This document shows positions 53 through 6,414 of a stretch of 32,648 nucleotides of DNA, piece by piece; the first letter of the stretch is position 1, and the number at the start of each line of letters is the position of its first letter. The notes under the pieces were generated by a model, which did not search any database, was not told the DNA's origin, and was given only the letters and a program-made list of their open reading frames with translations. The stretch covers positions 1 through 32,648 of the forward strand of contig JAHJCN010000051.1 of the NCBI GenBank assembly GCA_018812905.1, given 5' to 3'. Both the position numbers and the translations under genes were made by a program. Origin of the DNA: Patescibacteria group bacterium. GTDB taxonomy: Bacteria > Patescibacteriota > Patescibacteriia > Magasanikbacterales > GWA2-37-8.

Positions 53-316
53 ATGACTTTTGACGAATTTGTAAGGGAGTTCAATCGTCTCAAGGAGATG
101 GGAGAGTTGAGCGAGGAAGAGCACACGAGGGCGATGTCTTTTGTGAGGATGATCTGCGTGTCGGTCTTGCGCCGACACGGCAAGTGGATGAAGCCCCCGA
201 CAAGGCTGGTGGCATTCCCGGAGGACCTCCCGCACGGGACAAAGCTCACGCCGCAGGAGAAGCGTGAAGCCGAAAGGTTCACTGACTACCTGGACGAGCT
301 CCAACGCCCGTCCTGA
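53..316 (+). CDS. Small hypothetical protein, 87 aa, GC-rich with strong SD
   Basis: I do not recognise this protein. It is hydrophilic and rich in charged residues, with no signal peptide or membrane segment; the first 35 residues look helical (repeated E, R, K and hydrophobic spacing), followed by a Pro/Lys-rich middle and a second acidic-basic helix at the C-terminus. The start is well supported: a perfect AAGGAGG lies at 41-47, five bases before the ATG. Such a site is absent from nearly all other genes here. Over 61-300 the GC content is about 57 percent by hand count, against 32-43 percent in sample lines of neighbouring genes. The gene ends just before a GC-rich hairpin and is followed by a second small gene of the same style, which suggests a pair of accessory genes, possibly acquired. 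Function unknown. Confidence 0.62.
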   Translation: MTFDEFVREFNRLKEMGELSEEEHTRAMSFVRMICVSVLRRHGKWMKPPTRLVAFPEDLPHGTKLTPQEKREAERFTDYLDELQRPS

Positions 317-330
317 ATGCTACCGCAACG

Positions 331-372
331 CCCCACGCCCGCCACGTCTTTAGAGACAACGCGGGCGCGGGG
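331..372 (+). terminator. GC-rich hairpin after the first small gene
   Basis: The arms 331-342 (ccccacgcccgc) and 361-372 (gcgggcgcgggg) pair with a single A-C mismatch, and a small inner stem (gtct 346-349 with agac 354-357) sits in the loop. No run of T follows directly, so it is a strong structure but an imperfect intrinsic terminator. It separates the two GC-rich small genes. Confidence 0.4.
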
Positions 373-478
373 CACACTATTTATTGGAAATTATAGTGGT
401 CTCGGCGTGTGTTAAGTGAAGTGAATTTTTTGACTTTACTTACGATATGCTTGGATTGCTAACCCGAAGGAGGCGGAA

Positions 479-745
479 ATGGCCACAATCGATCAGGTTC
501 TCAACGTGAAGACGGAGGAGGATGTCGTTGCCTTCGGCGGTGTCAAGGAGGTGGCGAAGAAGGTATTCAAACCCGCCGACCGAGGCGGGTTTGAGACGGT
601 GACCTGCTGGTGTGAGAAGGGCTTCTGTGCGGGGCGCGACTGGCTCTCCATCCCCGCGTCGGATTTTGTAAATATTATCAAATCTGACCCGCATGGTCGA
701 AGTCTGGTGTTTCCGCGGGTCGCCGTCACACCAAAAAGTCGATAG
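479..745 (+). CDS. Small hypothetical protein, 88 aa, GC-rich with strong SD
   Basis: I do not recognise this protein. It has no signal peptide or membrane helix and carries two cysteines close together (CWC, around residues 42-44) and a third shortly after (GFC), which could bind a metal, but the pattern matches no family I know. A perfect AAGGAGG at 467-473 stands five bases before the ATG, exactly as in the preceding small gene. GC over 481-720 is about 57 percent by hand count. Residues 30-39 (FKPADRGGFE) are encoded by a perfect palindrome (567-594), so part of the protein may derive from an inserted repeat. A TTGACT at 430-435 has no convincing -10 partner. The gene ends next to the rsmI promoter. 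Function unknown. Confidence 0.58.
   Translation: MATIDQVLNVKTEEDVVAFGGVKEVAKKVFKPADRGGFETVTCWCEKGFCAGRDWLSIPASDFVNIIKSDPHGRSLVFPRVAVTPKSR
567..594. repeat. Perfect 11-bp palindrome inside a coding region
   Basis: The arms tcaaacccgcc (567-577) and ggcgggtttga (584-594) are perfectly complementary around a six-base loop. No T-run follows on either strand, so it is not a normal terminator. Its arms resemble those of the greA terminator (acccgcc and ggcgggtttt, 26834-26856), which hints at a shared repeat family or at common terminator composition. Confidence 0.6.
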
Positions 746-747
746 AA

Positions 748-776
748 TTGCCTTTTTTCGCTCATTTTGCTAAGAT
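748..776 (+). promoter_or_regulatory. Sigma70-type promoter of rsmI
   Basis: TTGCCT (748-753) and TAAGAT (771-776) are separated by exactly 17 bases. Counting seven bases on from the -10 box puts the transcription start at about 783, next to the ATG at 784, so the rsmI mRNA is probably leaderless. The in-frame TTG at 748 that could be taken as a start is the -35 box. Confidence 0.65.
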
Positions 777-783
777 ACATCAT

Positions 784-1503
784 ATGCAAAATAACGCTAT
801 ATATGTCGTGGCAACGCCAATCGGTAATTTTGGCGATATTAGTTTGCGCGCTTTGGAAACACTAAAGAGCGTTGATGTTATATTATGCGAAGACACGAGG
901 GTGACAAAAAATTTATTAAACCATTATGGAATCAAAAAGCCTTTAATGAGCTATCACCAACACAGTGATGCCAGAAAAGTAAAAGAAATTTTGGCGTTAT
1001 TGGATATGGGCAAGAACTTGGCCTTGGTGACAGATGCCGGGACACCGGGCATTTCCGACCCGGGGAATATGTTGGTGCAGAGTGTTGTTGCGAGTATGGC
1101 TACTTCCTCTAAAGGTGAGATTGCTTCGTCGCCCGTCGGGACTCATCACAATGACAGTGTTATTCCGATTCCTGGGGCGTCGGCAGTGATAACGGCGTTG
1201 TCCATATCAGGTTTTCCCACCGACAAATTTACTTTTTTTGGCTTTCCTCCGCATAAGAATAAGAGGCAGAAATATTTTAAGGAGATTGCGGTATGTGAAC
1301 ATACGGCCGTGTTCTACGAATCGGGCCATAGAATTTTAAAATGTTTAGCGGAATTGAAAGAAGTTTTACAACCGGAAAGAAAAATGGTCGTTTGTCGCGA
1401 GCTCACCAAGAAATTTGAGACAATTTATCGAGGAACAATCGATGAGGTTATCGCTAATATGAAAAACGAAAAAGGAGAATTTGTTGTGATAATCAATAGC
1501 TAA
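784..1503 (+). CDS. rsmI: 16S rRNA (cytidine(1402)-2'-O)-methyltransferase RsmI
   Basis: RsmI uses S-adenosylmethionine to methylate the 2'-O of C1402 in the decoding centre of 16S rRNA. The family is recognised by its N-terminus (YVVATPIGNFGDISLRAL), the CEDTR motif near residue 36, the glycine-rich LVTDAGTPGISDPG around 81-94 and PIPGASA around 128-134. With the ATG at 784 the product is 239 residues, slightly short for the family because the C-terminal tail is minimal. An in-frame TTG at 748 would add 12 residues but lies in the promoter. Odd feature: between the DPG loop and PIPGAS there are about 20 extra residues (about 101-126), part of which is encoded by a palindromic repeat at 1118-1155 also found in tatD. 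The enzyme should still fold, since this is a loop between the two halves of the fold, but activity was not tested. Confidence 0.93.
   Translation: MQNNAIYVVATPIGNFGDISLRALETLKSVDVILCEDTRVTKNLLNHYGIKKPLMSYHQHSDARKVKEILALLDMGKNLALVTDAGTPGISDPGNMLVQSVVASMATSSKGEIASSPVGTHHNDSVIPIPGASAVITALSISGFPTDKFTFFGFPPHKNKRQKYFKEIAVCEHTAVFYESGHRILKCLAELKEVLQPERKMVVCRELTKKFETIYRGTIDEVIANMKNEKGEFVVIINS
1118..1155 (-). repeat. Inserted repeat element, copy 1 (in rsmI)
   Basis: The reverse complement of this stretch begins gtcattg and ends gcgacgaagcaatct, matching the copy in tatD (5974-6012) at both ends and most of the middle. In the rsmI frame it is read as EIASSPVGTHHND, in a place where RsmI proteins normally have only a short link. 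ATTGC and GCAAT near the ends form a short terminal inverted repeat. Confidence 0.7.
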
Positions 1504-1522
1504 CAATTTGTCTGATTGTTAG
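1500..1522 (+). terminator. AT-rich hairpin between rsmI and metG
   Basis: ctaacaat (1500-1507) and attgttag (1515-1522) form a perfect eight-pair stem around a seven-base loop that begins at the rsmI stop codon. The following bases (ttgttaattg) are only partly T. It may be a weak terminator or an mRNA 3' end; the rest of the gap consists of near-repeats of ttgttaattg. Confidence 0.35.
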
Positions 1523-1549
1523 TTGTTAATTGCTAATTGTTAATCATTT

Positions 1550-3079
1550 ATGAATAAATTCTACATTACAACCGCAATCCCATACGCCAACGCAGATCCG
1601 CACATCGGACACGCTTTGGAAATTTTATACGCCGACATCATGGCGCGCTACAAGCGCTTGATCGGCAATGACGTATATTTTTTAACAGGCACGGATGAAC
1701 ACGGACAGAAAATGTTTAAGGCCGCCGTGGAGGCGGGGAAATCGGTGGAAGAATTCGCCGCGGAAAAATCGGCTAAGTATTTGGAGCTTGCCGATAGTTG
1801 GAATATCACTAATGATGATTTTATCCGCACAACCGAAGATCGCCACATGAATGCCGCGCAAAAATTTTGGGAAGAGTCGTTAAAAAATGGAAATATTTAC
1901 AAAAAGGATTATTCCGGACTCTATTGCGTGGGATGCGAAGCATATAAGACGGAAAAAGATTTGGTGGATGGAAAATGCTCGGATCATGGCACCGTGCCAG
2001 AAATAATCAAAGAAGAAAATTATTTTTTCCGCTTGTCCGCATTTCAAGAACCGCTTGAATTTTTATTTGAACAAAACAAGACGTTTGTGTATCCGCAAAG
2101 CAGATACAATGAAATGCACAATATCTTGAAATTCGGCTTGGAAGATGTGAGCATTTCCCGCTCCAAAGAAAAATTGTCTTGGGGCGTTCCCGTTCCCGGA
2201 GATGATAGCCAGGTGATGTATGTTTGGTTTGACGCGTTAACGAATTATGTGACGGCGCTTGGATATGGATCAACCGAAAATGAGTTGTTTCAAAAATTTT
2301 GGCCGGCGGACGCGCATGTGATCGGCAAGGAAATCAATCGTTTCCACTCTTTGCTTTGGCCGGCAATGCTGATGTCCGTAAATTTGGAATTGCCAAAACA
2401 AATCGCGGTTCATGGTTGGATTACTGTGAACGGTCAAAAGATGAGTAAAACCATCGGGAACGTGATTGATCCGCTGAAAGTTATTGAAAACCACCCGCTA
2501 GAAGCCGTGCGATATTTTTTGGCGCGAGAAATCCCGTTTGATAATGATGGAGATTTTTCCGAGGAAAAATTTAAGGATAGATTCAACGCGGATTTGGCCA
2601 ATGGCCTTGGCAATTTAACGAATCGTATATTGACGATGGTGGAAAAATATTGCGGGGGAGTTGTGCCAAAAACTTCCACGGAAGACGGCGAGCTCATTGG
2701 AAAATTAACCGACGATGTTTGGCCGACATATTTGGAAAAAATGGAAGAATTTGATTTTGTCCATGCTTTGGAAGCAACTTGGAAATTCGTGGCATTTTGC
2801 GATCACATGATTTCCGATAGACAGCCGTGGGCAATGGCCAAAGCCGGAAAGCAGAATGAGCTGGAAGATTTGCTATATCATTTGTGTGAGTCCTTGCGCC
2901 ATATCGCGCTTATGATCTGGCCGGTAATGCCGGAAACCGCGGAAAAAATATTTGTTCAGCTGGGTTTGGATGTTGGAAAAGAGTTGGGCAAATCTTTGAA
3001 TGATTTGCGACAGTGGGTGGAATTGACAGTTGGGAACAGGATAATAAAAGGGGACGCTTTATTTCCGAGATTGGAATAG
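1550..3079 (+). CDS. metG: Methionyl-tRNA synthetase
   Basis: This class I synthetase charges tRNA-Met, including the initiator, with methionine using ATP in the cytoplasm. The HIGH motif is present as HIGH at residues 18-21 and the KMSKT loop at 297-301. Residues 126-146 hold one zinc knuckle of the C-x2-C and C-x2-H kind (Cys126, Cys129, Cys143, His146), as in the single-knuckle MetRS group represented by Thermus. The 509 residues cover the catalytic, stem-contact and anticodon-binding helical domains; the C-terminal tRNA-binding domain found in longer bacterial versions is absent. The start ATG follows a T-rich gap with no ribosome site, which is typical of this window. Its neighbour cvpA begins 36 bases downstream. 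Confidence 0.97.
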   Translation: MNKFYITTAIPYANADPHIGHALEILYADIMARYKRLIGNDVYFLTGTDEHGQKMFKAAVEAGKSVEEFAAEKSAKYLELADSWNITNDDFIRTTEDRHMNAAQKFWEESLKNGNIYKKDYSGLYCVGCEAYKTEKDLVDGKCSDHGTVPEIIKEENYFFRLSAFQEPLEFLFEQNKTFVYPQSRYNEMHNILKFGLEDVSISRSKEKLSWGVPVPGDDSQVMYVWFDALTNYVTALGYGSTENELFQKFWPADAHVIGKEINRFHSLLWPAMLMSVNLELPKQIAVHGWITVNGQKMSKTIGNVIDPLKVIENHPLEAVRYFLAREIPFDNDGDFSEEKFKDRFNADLANGLGNLTNRILTMVEKYCGGVVPKTSTEDGELIGKLTDDVWPTYLEKMEEFDFVHALEATWKFVAFCDHMISDRQPWAMAKAGKQNELEDLLYHLCESLRHIALMIWPVMPETAEKIFVQLGLDVGKELGKSLNDLRQWVELTVGNRIIKGDALFPRLE

Positions 3080-3642: not shown

Positions 3643-5472
3643 ATGCAAAAAAAATTGTTCGCATCGATTTTATTCGCAATAATGTTTCTTTCGGGATGCG
3701 TCTATTGGCCTACCATAAAAGCCGAACAATTTGATTCTGATTTGATTTTGAAGCCGGAGGAAACCGCTGGAAATTCAGCAAAAAATGAATATCAATATAC
3801 TGTGCCTTGGGATTCGTCTATTTTTGACGAATATTATGCCAACGCAAGAAATGTTCCGGAGATTGGAGACGTGCGCGGAGGAATTGTACCGCATCATCTT
3901 TTAGCCGGATATATCCCGGCTACTTTTTTTAAAAAATTGGAGAAACAAAAACCATCATTGATTATTCTTCTGGGACCGAATCATTTAAACGCCGGTGGTG
4001 CCAACGCCATTTCCACATTGCTCGATTGGCAAACCCCGTATGGGGTTGTGCGTACGGACAAAGAACTGGTTGGAAGGTTGGCCGAAAGGGGAATAGTTAA
4101 GATTCAGGAAGAAATAATGAAAGACGAGCACAGTATCTATTCCATTTTGCCGTTCATGGCGAAATCTGTTCCGAATGCTAAGGTTTTGCCGATAATTTTT
4201 AGCTACAAAACAGATGTCGGCAAGCTCAATGAAATTTTGGCTGTGCTGTTGCCGCAATTACCAAAGGACGCGGTTGTGGTTTCCTCTGTTGATTTTTCAC
4301 ATTATCAAACATTGGACGCGTCTAATTTTCACGACGAACTGTCGCGCGCGGTCATCAAAAATTTTGACTACGGTCGGTTGGATAATTTGGAAGTTGATTC
4401 CGCTCCCAGCCTATATTTGATGATGCGCCTACTTGAAAACATGAGCGCCCAGAGAGTGGCGTTTGAAATATCCGATAATTCGGCGCACTTATTAAACGAT
4501 GCCACTTTGAAAGAGGGGACGAGTTATTTTTCGCCATATTTTGTGGACGGAGTGAAGGAGAAAGAAAAAATTGCCAGTATTTTGAATTTTGGCGATCTTA
4601 TGCTGGATAGAGACGTCAAGCAGAAAATAGACGCCAATTCAAGTGATTATTTGCTTTCCAAGCTTGCGGGTCAAGAGAATAGGTTTTTTCTTGGAATGGA
4701 CGCGATCGGAGCTAACCTGGAGGGTCCGTTTGCGAATTATCGCCGTCCCACAAGCAAAAGCATAGCTTTTCAATTTGATCCGAAATTGATTTTGATGCTG
4801 AAGAAGTATAATTTTTCCATATTGAATAATGCCAACAATCATACGCTGGACATGGGCAAGGATGGTTTTGTTGAATCACAAAACAATTTAATGAAGGCTG
4901 GAATTGATTATTATGGCGCGCAATATGATATTGATGATAATTCGTATGTTATAAAAAAAGTTGGAGATTACAACATTGCTTTTCTGGGATTGAACGATAC
5001 AAATGCCCGAGTAAATTTAAAGCTAACGAAGAGCATCGTTGAAAAAATTAAACCCAAGTCGGATTTTATTATCGCCAATGTGCATTGGGGGCAAGAATAT
5101 CAAAAAACATCGAATTCATTACAGCGCAAACTGGCGCGTGAACTAATTGATTTGGGTGTTGATGCAATTATAGGGCACCATCCCCACGTTGTGCAAGAAA
5201 TGGAAATTTATAAAAATCGCCCTATTTTTTATTCACTCGGAAATTTTGTCTTTGATCAATATTTTTCCGAAGCCACGCAACAGGAATTGGGAGTTGGGTT
5301 GGTATTTAGGGACAAGTCTATTTCCGCCTACGTTTTTCCATTGCAAAGCGTGAAAAGCCAAATTTCGCAGATGAACTATGCCAACGCGATAAAATTTACG
5401 AGCGACTGGACCGCGAAAAGTCGATTGGGCGATAATAAATTTAATAATTTTAATCTGAAAATAAATTTTTAA
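3643..5472 (+). CDS. Lipoprotein with MEMO-like and CapA-like domains
   Basis: A 609-residue exported fusion. Residues 1-19 are a lipoprotein signal ending in the lipobox LSGC, so Cys19 would be lipidated and the protein anchored outside the membrane. Residues about 75-300 match the MEMO/AmmeMemoRadiSam-B family: VPHH (82-85), LGPNH (110-114) and VDFSHY (216-221). The third metal ligand of MEMO, usually Cys in a CG motif, appears to be Ser here. Residues about 312-565 match the CapA/PgsA metallophosphatase-like family: NFGD (315-318), NLEGPF, NNANNH (395-400), HWGQE (from 481) and GHHPH (511-515). CapA proteins are tied to poly-gamma-glutamate or other surface polymers. The partner genes of AmmeMemoRadiSam (AMMECR1, radical SAM) are not in this window. 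A role in the cell surface is likely; the reaction is unknown. Confidence 0.82.
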   Translation: MQKKLFASILFAIMFLSGCVYWPTIKAEQFDSDLILKPEETAGNSAKNEYQYTVPWDSSIFDEYYANARNVPEIGDVRGGIVPHHLLAGYIPATFFKKLEKQKPSLIILLGPNHLNAGGANAISTLLDWQTPYGVVRTDKELVGRLAERGIVKIQEEIMKDEHSIYSILPFMAKSVPNAKVLPIIFSYKTDVGKLNEILAVLLPQLPKDAVVVSSVDFSHYQTLDASNFHDELSRAVIKNFDYGRLDNLEVDSAPSLYLMMRLLENMSAQRVAFEISDNSAHLLNDATLKEGTSYFSPYFVDGVKEKEKIASILNFGDLMLDRDVKQKIDANSSDYLLSKLAGQENRFFLGMDAIGANLEGPFANYRRPTSKSIAFQFDPKLILMLKKYNFSILNNANNHTLDMGKDGFVESQNNLMKAGIDYYGAQYDIDDNSYVIKKVGDYNIAFLGLNDTNARVNLKLTKSIVEKIKPKSDFIIANVHWGQEYQKTSNSLQRKLARELIDLGVDAIIGHHPHVVQEMEIYKNRPIFYSLGNFVFDQYFSEATQQELGVGLVFRDKSISAYVFPLQSVKSQISQMNYANAIKFTSDWTAKSRLGDNKFNNFNLKINF

Positions 5473-5499: not shown

Positions 5500-6414
5500 A
5501 TGATTGATTCACATTGCCATATTCAATTCAATGCCTACAAAGACGACGCTGATGAGGTGATAAAAAGATGTCGTGAAAAAAATGTCACCATGAATTGCGT
5601 TGGATCGCAGAGAGACACTAGTGTTCGCGCCGTTGAATACGCGGAAAAATATGATAGTATTTTTGCCACCGTTGGCCTGCATCCGGTTCATATTTCGTCC
5701 ACCGAAGTTGATGAAGAAGAAATTCGTTTTCAATCGCGAGAAGAAGGATTTGATTATGAATTTTATAAAAAACTGGCCTCACATCCAAAAGTGATTGGAA
5801 TAGGGGAGTGCGGATTGGAATTGTTTCACCTTCCTCCGAACATTAATCGCGAAGAAGTTATTACCAAGCAAACGGTGGGATTTATGGCGCAATACAATTT
5901 GGCGAAAGAATTGCGTTTACCGATGGTGATTCATGTGCGAGACGCGCATCAGGAGATGATTGAATTATTAAGTGTCATTGCGAGAAGCGAGGGACGAGCG
6001 ACGAAGCAATCTTTAAAAATCAAGATTACAGCACCGCATCACCACGGTGAGTGTAGCACCATCGCGGGCGTTGTCCACTGCTTCACCGGCAACTGGCAGT
6101 TCGCACAGGAATATCTAAAGCTGGGCTTGTACATCGGCTTCACCGGCGTGATAACTTTTCCGGCGAAAAAAACCGACCCAAAGTCTCAAGAAGAACTGCT
6201 TGAGGTTGTAAAAAATTGTCCACGGGATAGGATATTGATTGAAACGGACGCCCCATATTTGGCGCCCCAAGCCTACCGTGGCAAGCGTTGCGAACCTTGG
6301 ATGGTGGTGGAAGTCGCCAAGAAAATCGCTGAAATCCGTGGGTTGTCTTTGGAAGAGGTAGTTAAATTGACTGAAGAGAATACGCGAAGATTGTTTTATA
6401 AAATTAACATCTAA
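5500..6414 (+). CDS. tatD: TatD family metal-dependent hydrolase
   Basis: TatD/YcfH proteins are TIM-barrel enzymes with two metal ions, described as DNases. The ligands are visible: HCH at residues 5-7, Glu103 in GECGLE, His145 in VIHVRDAH, His193 in VVHCF and Asp250 in ETDAPYL. The protein is 304 residues from the ATG at 5500; an in-frame TTG at 5491 would add three residues but is less likely. Odd feature: between RDAHQEMIELL and the VVHCF strand lie about 30 extra residues (about 158-189), and residues 159-171 (VIARSEGRATKQS) are encoded by a repeat at 5974-6012 that also sits in rsmI. The following H/P/G-rich stretch may be further insertion. The frame stays open, so the gene is probably functional. 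The kinase gene starts three bases after the stop. Confidence 0.9.
   Translation: MIDSHCHIQFNAYKDDADEVIKRCREKNVTMNCVGSQRDTSVRAVEYAEKYDSIFATVGLHPVHISSTEVDEEEIRFQSREEGFDYEFYKKLASHPKVIGIGECGLELFHLPPNINREEVITKQTVGFMAQYNLAKELRLPMVIHVRDAHQEMIELLSVIARSEGRATKQSLKIKITAPHHHGECSTIAGVVHCFTGNWQFAQEYLKLGLYIGFTGVITFPAKKTDPKSQEELLEVVKNCPRDRILIETDAPYLAPQAYRGKRCEPWMVVEVAKKIAEIRGLSLEEVVKLTEENTRRLFYKINI
5974..6012 (+). repeat. Inserted repeat element, copy 2 (in tatD)
   Basis: A 39-base element running from gtcattg to gcgacgaagcaatct, with ATTGC and GCAAT as short terminal inverted repeats. It is the same element as the reverse complement of 1118-1155 in rsmI. It is read in frame as VIARSEGRATKQS, in a surface-loop position of the TatD fold. 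Confidence 0.78.

Follow-up and report, generated by a model that had tools for sequence, protein, structure and literature searches.

In-frame palindromic repeats in core enzyme genes of a patescibacterial genome and their recurrence in the same loops of related genomes

The 39-mer at positions 5974-6012 of the window (the whole 32,648-nt stretch of DNA analysed here) forms a single arm of a palindromic repeat that is dispersed through a Patescibacteria genome, and the repeat unit is probably one arm of an inverted dimer, not these 39 bases. We consider it very probable that the element is a TGTC-tagged, REP/RPE-like sequence with no resident RAYT transposase, which was inserted in frame and was kept where a peptide in a surface loop is tolerated.

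Copies in the window

The element that the original prediction had placed in frame in tatD was confirmed, whereas the inverted copy proposed for rsmI is real but can be called the same element only in degenerate form, because one of its ends is changed and the 20-nt end alone is 95% identical. The features are as follows.

5500-6414, + strand: tatD, host gene; frame open through the insert; Pfam PF01026 (E-value 2e-72)
5974-6012, + strand: first arm of the tatD insert, GTCATTGCGAG...GAAGCAATCT, read as VIARSEGRATKQS in the tatD frame
5973-6061, + strand: probable whole tatD insert (residues about 164-189), with the intact first arm and a decayed inverted second arm (about 6023-6061)
784-1503, + strand: rsmI, host gene; frame open through the insert
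1118-1155, - strand: arm in rsmI, inverted and degenerate; 20-nt end 95% identical to the tatD copy, other end changed (GTCATTGTGATGAG)
1083-1156, + strand: probable whole decayed dimer in rsmI, both arms recognisable (1083-1094 and 1118-1156)

The first rsmI arm, TGTTGTTGCGAG at 1083-1094, matches TGTCATTGCGAG at 10 of 12 positions. Loop length and register of the tatD insert match the intact dimer in the TatD of genome G044, and these two properties suggest a second arm at about 6023-6061, which in sequence is very weak (identical to the intact second arm in the G044 homologue at 17/39 positions). The inserts of both genes are probably remnants of two-armed inverted dimers. That two nearby copies would indicate recent activity was not borne out, since both look decayed; recent spread is evidenced instead by near-identical copies, which are present elsewhere in the genome, and by presence and absence between genomes of one genus. 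From the frame and from stop-codon conservation the insert would be expected to be translated. The nearest TatD homologues by name came from Candidatus Magasanikbacteria (54% identity) and Kerfeldbacteria (47%), which makes a patescibacterium of that group the very probable host.

The repeat unit and its copies in the genome

The genome containing the window (G000; 137 contigs, 992 kb; the window is contig 8) was searched with the pattern GTCATTGCGAGN{2,25}GAAGCAATC, which gave 45 copies with exact ends (24 forward, 21 reverse). The reversed pattern, read backwards as a control, gave 0 matches in the same genome. The element thus belongs to a dispersed family, as had been proposed. Neither outcome that would have refuted the prediction, a lack of further copies in the genome or the same segment with conservative codon changes in every close TatD homologue, was encountered. 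Ordinary variation in loop length combined with a chance similarity to the repeat, or an assembly artefact, could be argued from the generally variable length of the TatD loop; this reading is refuted by the counts of 45 copies against 0 in the control, the same pattern was present in many separately assembled genomes, and we give it practically no credence.

In the aligned copies an arm has the form TGTCATTGCGAG-[variable inner stem-loop]-GAAGCAATC, followed by CCA or TCT, and is 26-44 nt long. GTC itself was contained in the search pattern; of the 45 copies, 43 have T before it, one has C and one has A. All copies start the stem with A-T pairs (ATTGC...GCAAT), for which the pattern itself selected, and end with GCAATCCCA in many cases and with GCAATCTCT or GCAATCTTA in others. 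The stem comprises an outer 5 bp, an internal loop and an inner stem of about 2-8 bp; the inner stems vary in sequence and length while base-pairing is kept (mean z -1.9 for 35 distinct arms), with self-complementary middles such as TCCCGACTAAGTCGGGA and CCCGCAAGGCGGG. Taken as a single hairpin, the tatD 39-mer is unremarkable (z -0.8) and among the weaker hairpins of the arms. Inverted pairs of arms spanning about 67-119 nt, TGTCATTGC...GCAATC--GATTGC...GCAATGACA, are common, and about 20 were listed for the genome, some of them overlapping or degenerate. Dimer length modulo 3 pointed to no consistent length of a target duplication. The 36-nt consensus is open in five of its six reading frames.

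No Rfam family was found in the window, and the exact 39-mer had no match in GTDB contigs; the inner sequence of the tatD arm therefore appears private, with relatives sharing the ends only. Neither the repeat DNA nor its peptide had a relevant match in the literature searched.

Copies inside genes of the genome

Stop-to-stop frames were taken around every arm and combined with Pfam. By this measure at least 18 of the 45 arms, distributed over 15 sites, are in frame within Pfam-supported genes, with the degenerate rsmI copy coming in addition. The host genes are tatD, polA (three sites), leuS, radA, uvrA, trmD, mnmA and the genes for a Mur ligase, a PLP enzyme, two glycosyltransferases, an O-antigen ligase and a Nudix-containing protein. 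All three forward frames as well as reverse frames of the arms are used, and every in-gene insert read was free of stop codons and kept the frame of its host. In polA (G000:C44, ORF 182-3031, + strand) one of the three separate in-frame copies lies in the exonuclease part and two lie further on.

Ribosomal bypass is known from the mitochondrial byp elements, and the hairpins formed by the inserts and their position in core genes might suggest that the element is lost before or in the course of translation, by excision from the RNA or by bypass, leaving a normal protein. Such removal would not require inserts to be stop-free and in frame, as all in-gene inserts read are; moreover, inserts vary in both length and position, and neither splice nor bypass signals were seen. 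We regard this reading as highly improbable.

The shared insertion site in TatD

A large insert was found in 11 of the 83 TatD genes of the order, and in each case the matches were split at query residues 158-163, that is in the same alpha-to-beta loop. Read at the DNA level all 11 inserts are palindromic, and they derive from at least three repeat families.

GTCATTGCGAG type: G000, G044, G016, G012, and G085 with GTCATCGCGAG
GTCATTCYGA type: G009, G004
GAGACC/CTCCCC type: G005, G018, G049
Decayed palindrome: G067

The three main families (GTCATTGCGAG, GTCATTCYGA and GAGACCTCYCCC) are multi-copy in their host genomes and had zero matches to the reversed controls. In the relatives G044, G012 and G016 the tatD insert is the intact dimer. 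The segment is absent from most homologues, although the statement that TatD proteins lack any such segment was too broad, since other palindromic inserts occupy precisely this loop in 10 relatives from the order. The original prediction did not include the dimer structure, the 15 or more sites within genes or the shared landing site. Elsewhere in tatD no comparable in-frame insert was seen in the 83 genomes, where the only other cases were two broken or partial copies (G069, G077); the G069 gene (C6:6840-7615) is split into two frames of 151 and 142 aa, away from the shared insertion site. Among 80 more distant TatDs, the 24 recovered by motif search had no recognised palindromic insert; they do not constitute a control.

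Some loops lacking a palindrome hold short AT-rich repeats instead, such as ISDLGFRISDL (G019 rsmI), KLQIKNYKLKI (G060 tatD) and NLKIKNLKLKI (G010 trmD), and these loops may also gather non-palindromic filler.

Recurrence of inserts in RsmI, TrmD and RadA

In RsmI inserts precede the IPIPG motif in seven genomes, and each of them is different. A TatD and RsmI tree was built with the inserts left out, its RsmI rows coming from 20 genomes only. Insert presence changed state at least nine times for TatD and seven times for RsmI, for which the tree holds six of the seven inserts and a small extension in G050; these counts do not distinguish gain from loss.

The tree bears on the possibility that each gene received one ancient insertion, which passed to its descendants and was subsequently rewritten through gene conversion or recombination involving other repeats of the genome. 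The TatD inserts of G000, G044 and G016 start at the same codon with VIA, for which reason some inserts of the GTCATTGCGAG type may share one ancestral insertion, and G009 and G018, which belong to one genus, have different families at the TatD site. These numbers of changes argue against a single insertion, as do genomes of the same genus without any TatD insert and with a normal loop of 8-13 residues (G019 compared with G012, G060 with G049, and G039 with G085), and we consider one ancient insertion per gene unlikely.

TrmD has palindromic or repeat-derived inserts in one loop in twelve genomes (G000, G018, G011, G004, G009, G019, G013, G026, G003, G023, G005 and G016), those of G003, G023, G005 and G016 being assigned by visible self-complementarity and not by copy counts. 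The G026 insert is dRS3-like, GTCATTCCCGCG...GCGGGAA. The trmD loop of G005 holds a perfect 28-nt palindrome, GTAGGGAACGCATATATGCGTTCCCTAC. In RadA one loop holds different families, namely a GTCATTGCGAG dimer in G000 and a CCCCTCC/GGAGGGG dimer in G018, while in G019 the insert occupies the preceding helix-to-strand loop. Because TrmD and RadA were chosen for their inserts in G000, they show repetition and not the frequency across all genes.

The GTCATTGCGAG repeat occurs patchily within the order, in 20 of 57 genomes, and inserts are concentrated in the genomes that bear it (TatD 9/9, Fisher p 4e-5; TrmD p 4e-4), according to tests that ignore phylogeny. Several genomes have inserts that replace part of the native loop instead of purely adding to it, which counts against plain insertion.

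Position in the protein models and proposed mechanism

In the AlphaFold model of TatD (mean pLDDT 90) the insert lies between helix 150-163 and strand 190-193, and its residues 167-185 form the only stretch below 50. The weaker RsmI model (mean pLDDT 81) shows the insert, residues 110-122, as disordered and situated between helix 94-108 and strand 126-129. These two models place the inserts of TatD and RsmI in predicted surface loops, and a like position may be supposed for TrmD and RadA. The alpha-to-beta loops of a TIM barrel are on the face opposite the active site, so that tolerance of inserts is expected there.

According to the mechanism that we favour, arms and dimers would spread through the genome in a transposition-like manner, and each insertion with a net length divisible by three would add roughly 15-40 residues. 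Inserts would survive where the added residues hang outside the protein, in alpha-to-beta loops at its surface that are remote from the catalytic face, and such survival in tolerant loops only would cause the same few loops to be reoccupied in different lineages and by different palindrome families.

The loops could also be targeted and not merely tolerated, through a preference at the level of DNA, replication or transcription or through selection for the added peptides. All 11 large TatD inserts from the 83 genomes fall within about 6 residues, though other surface loops exist, and in TrmD several unrelated types of palindrome have inserted in about 12 genomes. Yet the same genome has inserts in many other genes and between genes, the insert sequences, lengths and frames differ and hence preserve no conserved peptide, and unrelated repeat families would all need one target preference; targeting is in our judgement quite unlikely. 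We are equally doubtful of the stronger proposal that the same alpha-to-beta loops are, beyond tolerance, preferred landing or storage sites for unrelated palindrome families, by which core proteins would be continually re-decorated with new peptides.

As regards the mobilising enzyme, no Y1 transposase (PF01797) was found in the G000 genome, and among relatives PF01797 was weakly associated with the repeat (8 of 20 repeat-bearing and 6 of 34 repeat-free genomes, p 0.11); mobilisation by a RAYT or IS200 element from within the genome was rejected on these grounds. None of ten Y1_Tnp loci of relatives had the full conserved ends of the repeat close by. The congeneric genomes were too diverged to yield a clean empty-site comparison with a target-site duplication.

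Relation to known repeat systems

The superfamily of CGTC-tagged REPs includes the Rickettsia elements RPE-4 and RPE-6 and the Neisseria dRS3 (Di Nocera et al., 2013, PMC3733652). Like these REPs, which have no dedicated transposase (PMC3733652), the repeats described here are dispersed palindromes of small size that bear a (C/T)GTC end and begin the stem with AT; their arms are paired in opposite orientation, with dimers predominating, they agree in the absence of a Y1 transposase, and some units are situated in frame within genes, frequently those for repair (here polA, uvrA and radA). They differ from CGTC REPs, with a stem of 8-9 bp and a loop of 4-5 nt, in their 5-bp outer stem, internal loop and hypervariable inner stem, as well as in the patescibacterial host and in the occurrence of several families in the same loops. 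Because of the different stem geometry we do not file the repeat as a proven member of the CGTC REPs.

The suggested likeness to Rickettsia palindromic elements is supported, RPE-4 and RPE-6 having been equated with CGTC-tagged REPs (PMC3733652). It is a likeness of kind: in both cases palindromes have inserted in frame into numerous core genes that are unrelated to one another, and the genome is a reduced one. REPIN/RAYT systems (GTAG-tagged REPs) are similar in consisting of short hairpins that form mobile inverted pairs and occur in many copies; unlike them, the present repeat has no GTAG tag, the genome has no RAYT or other Y1_Tnp gene, and no such gene is flanked by the repeat in relatives. 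MITEs and enterobacterial RU elements (PMC2759123) are short mobile sequences of 103-168 bp with open frames that occur inside genes; open frames inside genes are common to both, whereas the arms found here measure 26-44 nt.

In recB of two Xanthomonas species different REPs occur at about the same site (PMC3733652). This is the nearest precedent found for a shared landing site; apart from it, no description of unrelated families occupying one loop repeatedly was found in the literature searched. The kind of element is already known, from Rickettsia RPEs and intragenic CGTC REPs. What appears to be new is its extent in Patescibacteria and the way in which different families use the same loops repeatedly, a novelty that is provisional as the literature searched, in which the patescibacterial pattern was not found described, covered few subscription journals.

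These results add a streamlined patescibacterial lineage to Rickettsia and the few other bacteria in which coding palindromes are known, with a density that is high for a 1 Mb genome. Different elements in the same loops of four core enzymes amount to a natural replicated insertion experiment, which opens to test the old question of whether inserts of this sort are neutral junk or supply proteins with new segments. For annotators, such inserts are real parts of genes and not frame errors. The repeat also adds to the puzzle of what moves REPs that lack a transposase.

Additional observations

A 465-aa ORF without Pfam match (G000:C32, 1096-2490, - strand) contains many palindrome-derived peptides (IASSPxAPRND, EILKQVQDD, VMLSKAKHP), apparently from several repeat families within one protein. 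Besides its palindromic insert, leuS (G000:C86, ORF 3-2246, - strand) encodes a NUDIX domain at residues 416-535, after the match to the editing domain. In the window, the ORF at 3643-5472 appears from its sequence to be a fusion of an AmmeMemoRadiSam/MEMO-like part and a CapA-like part.
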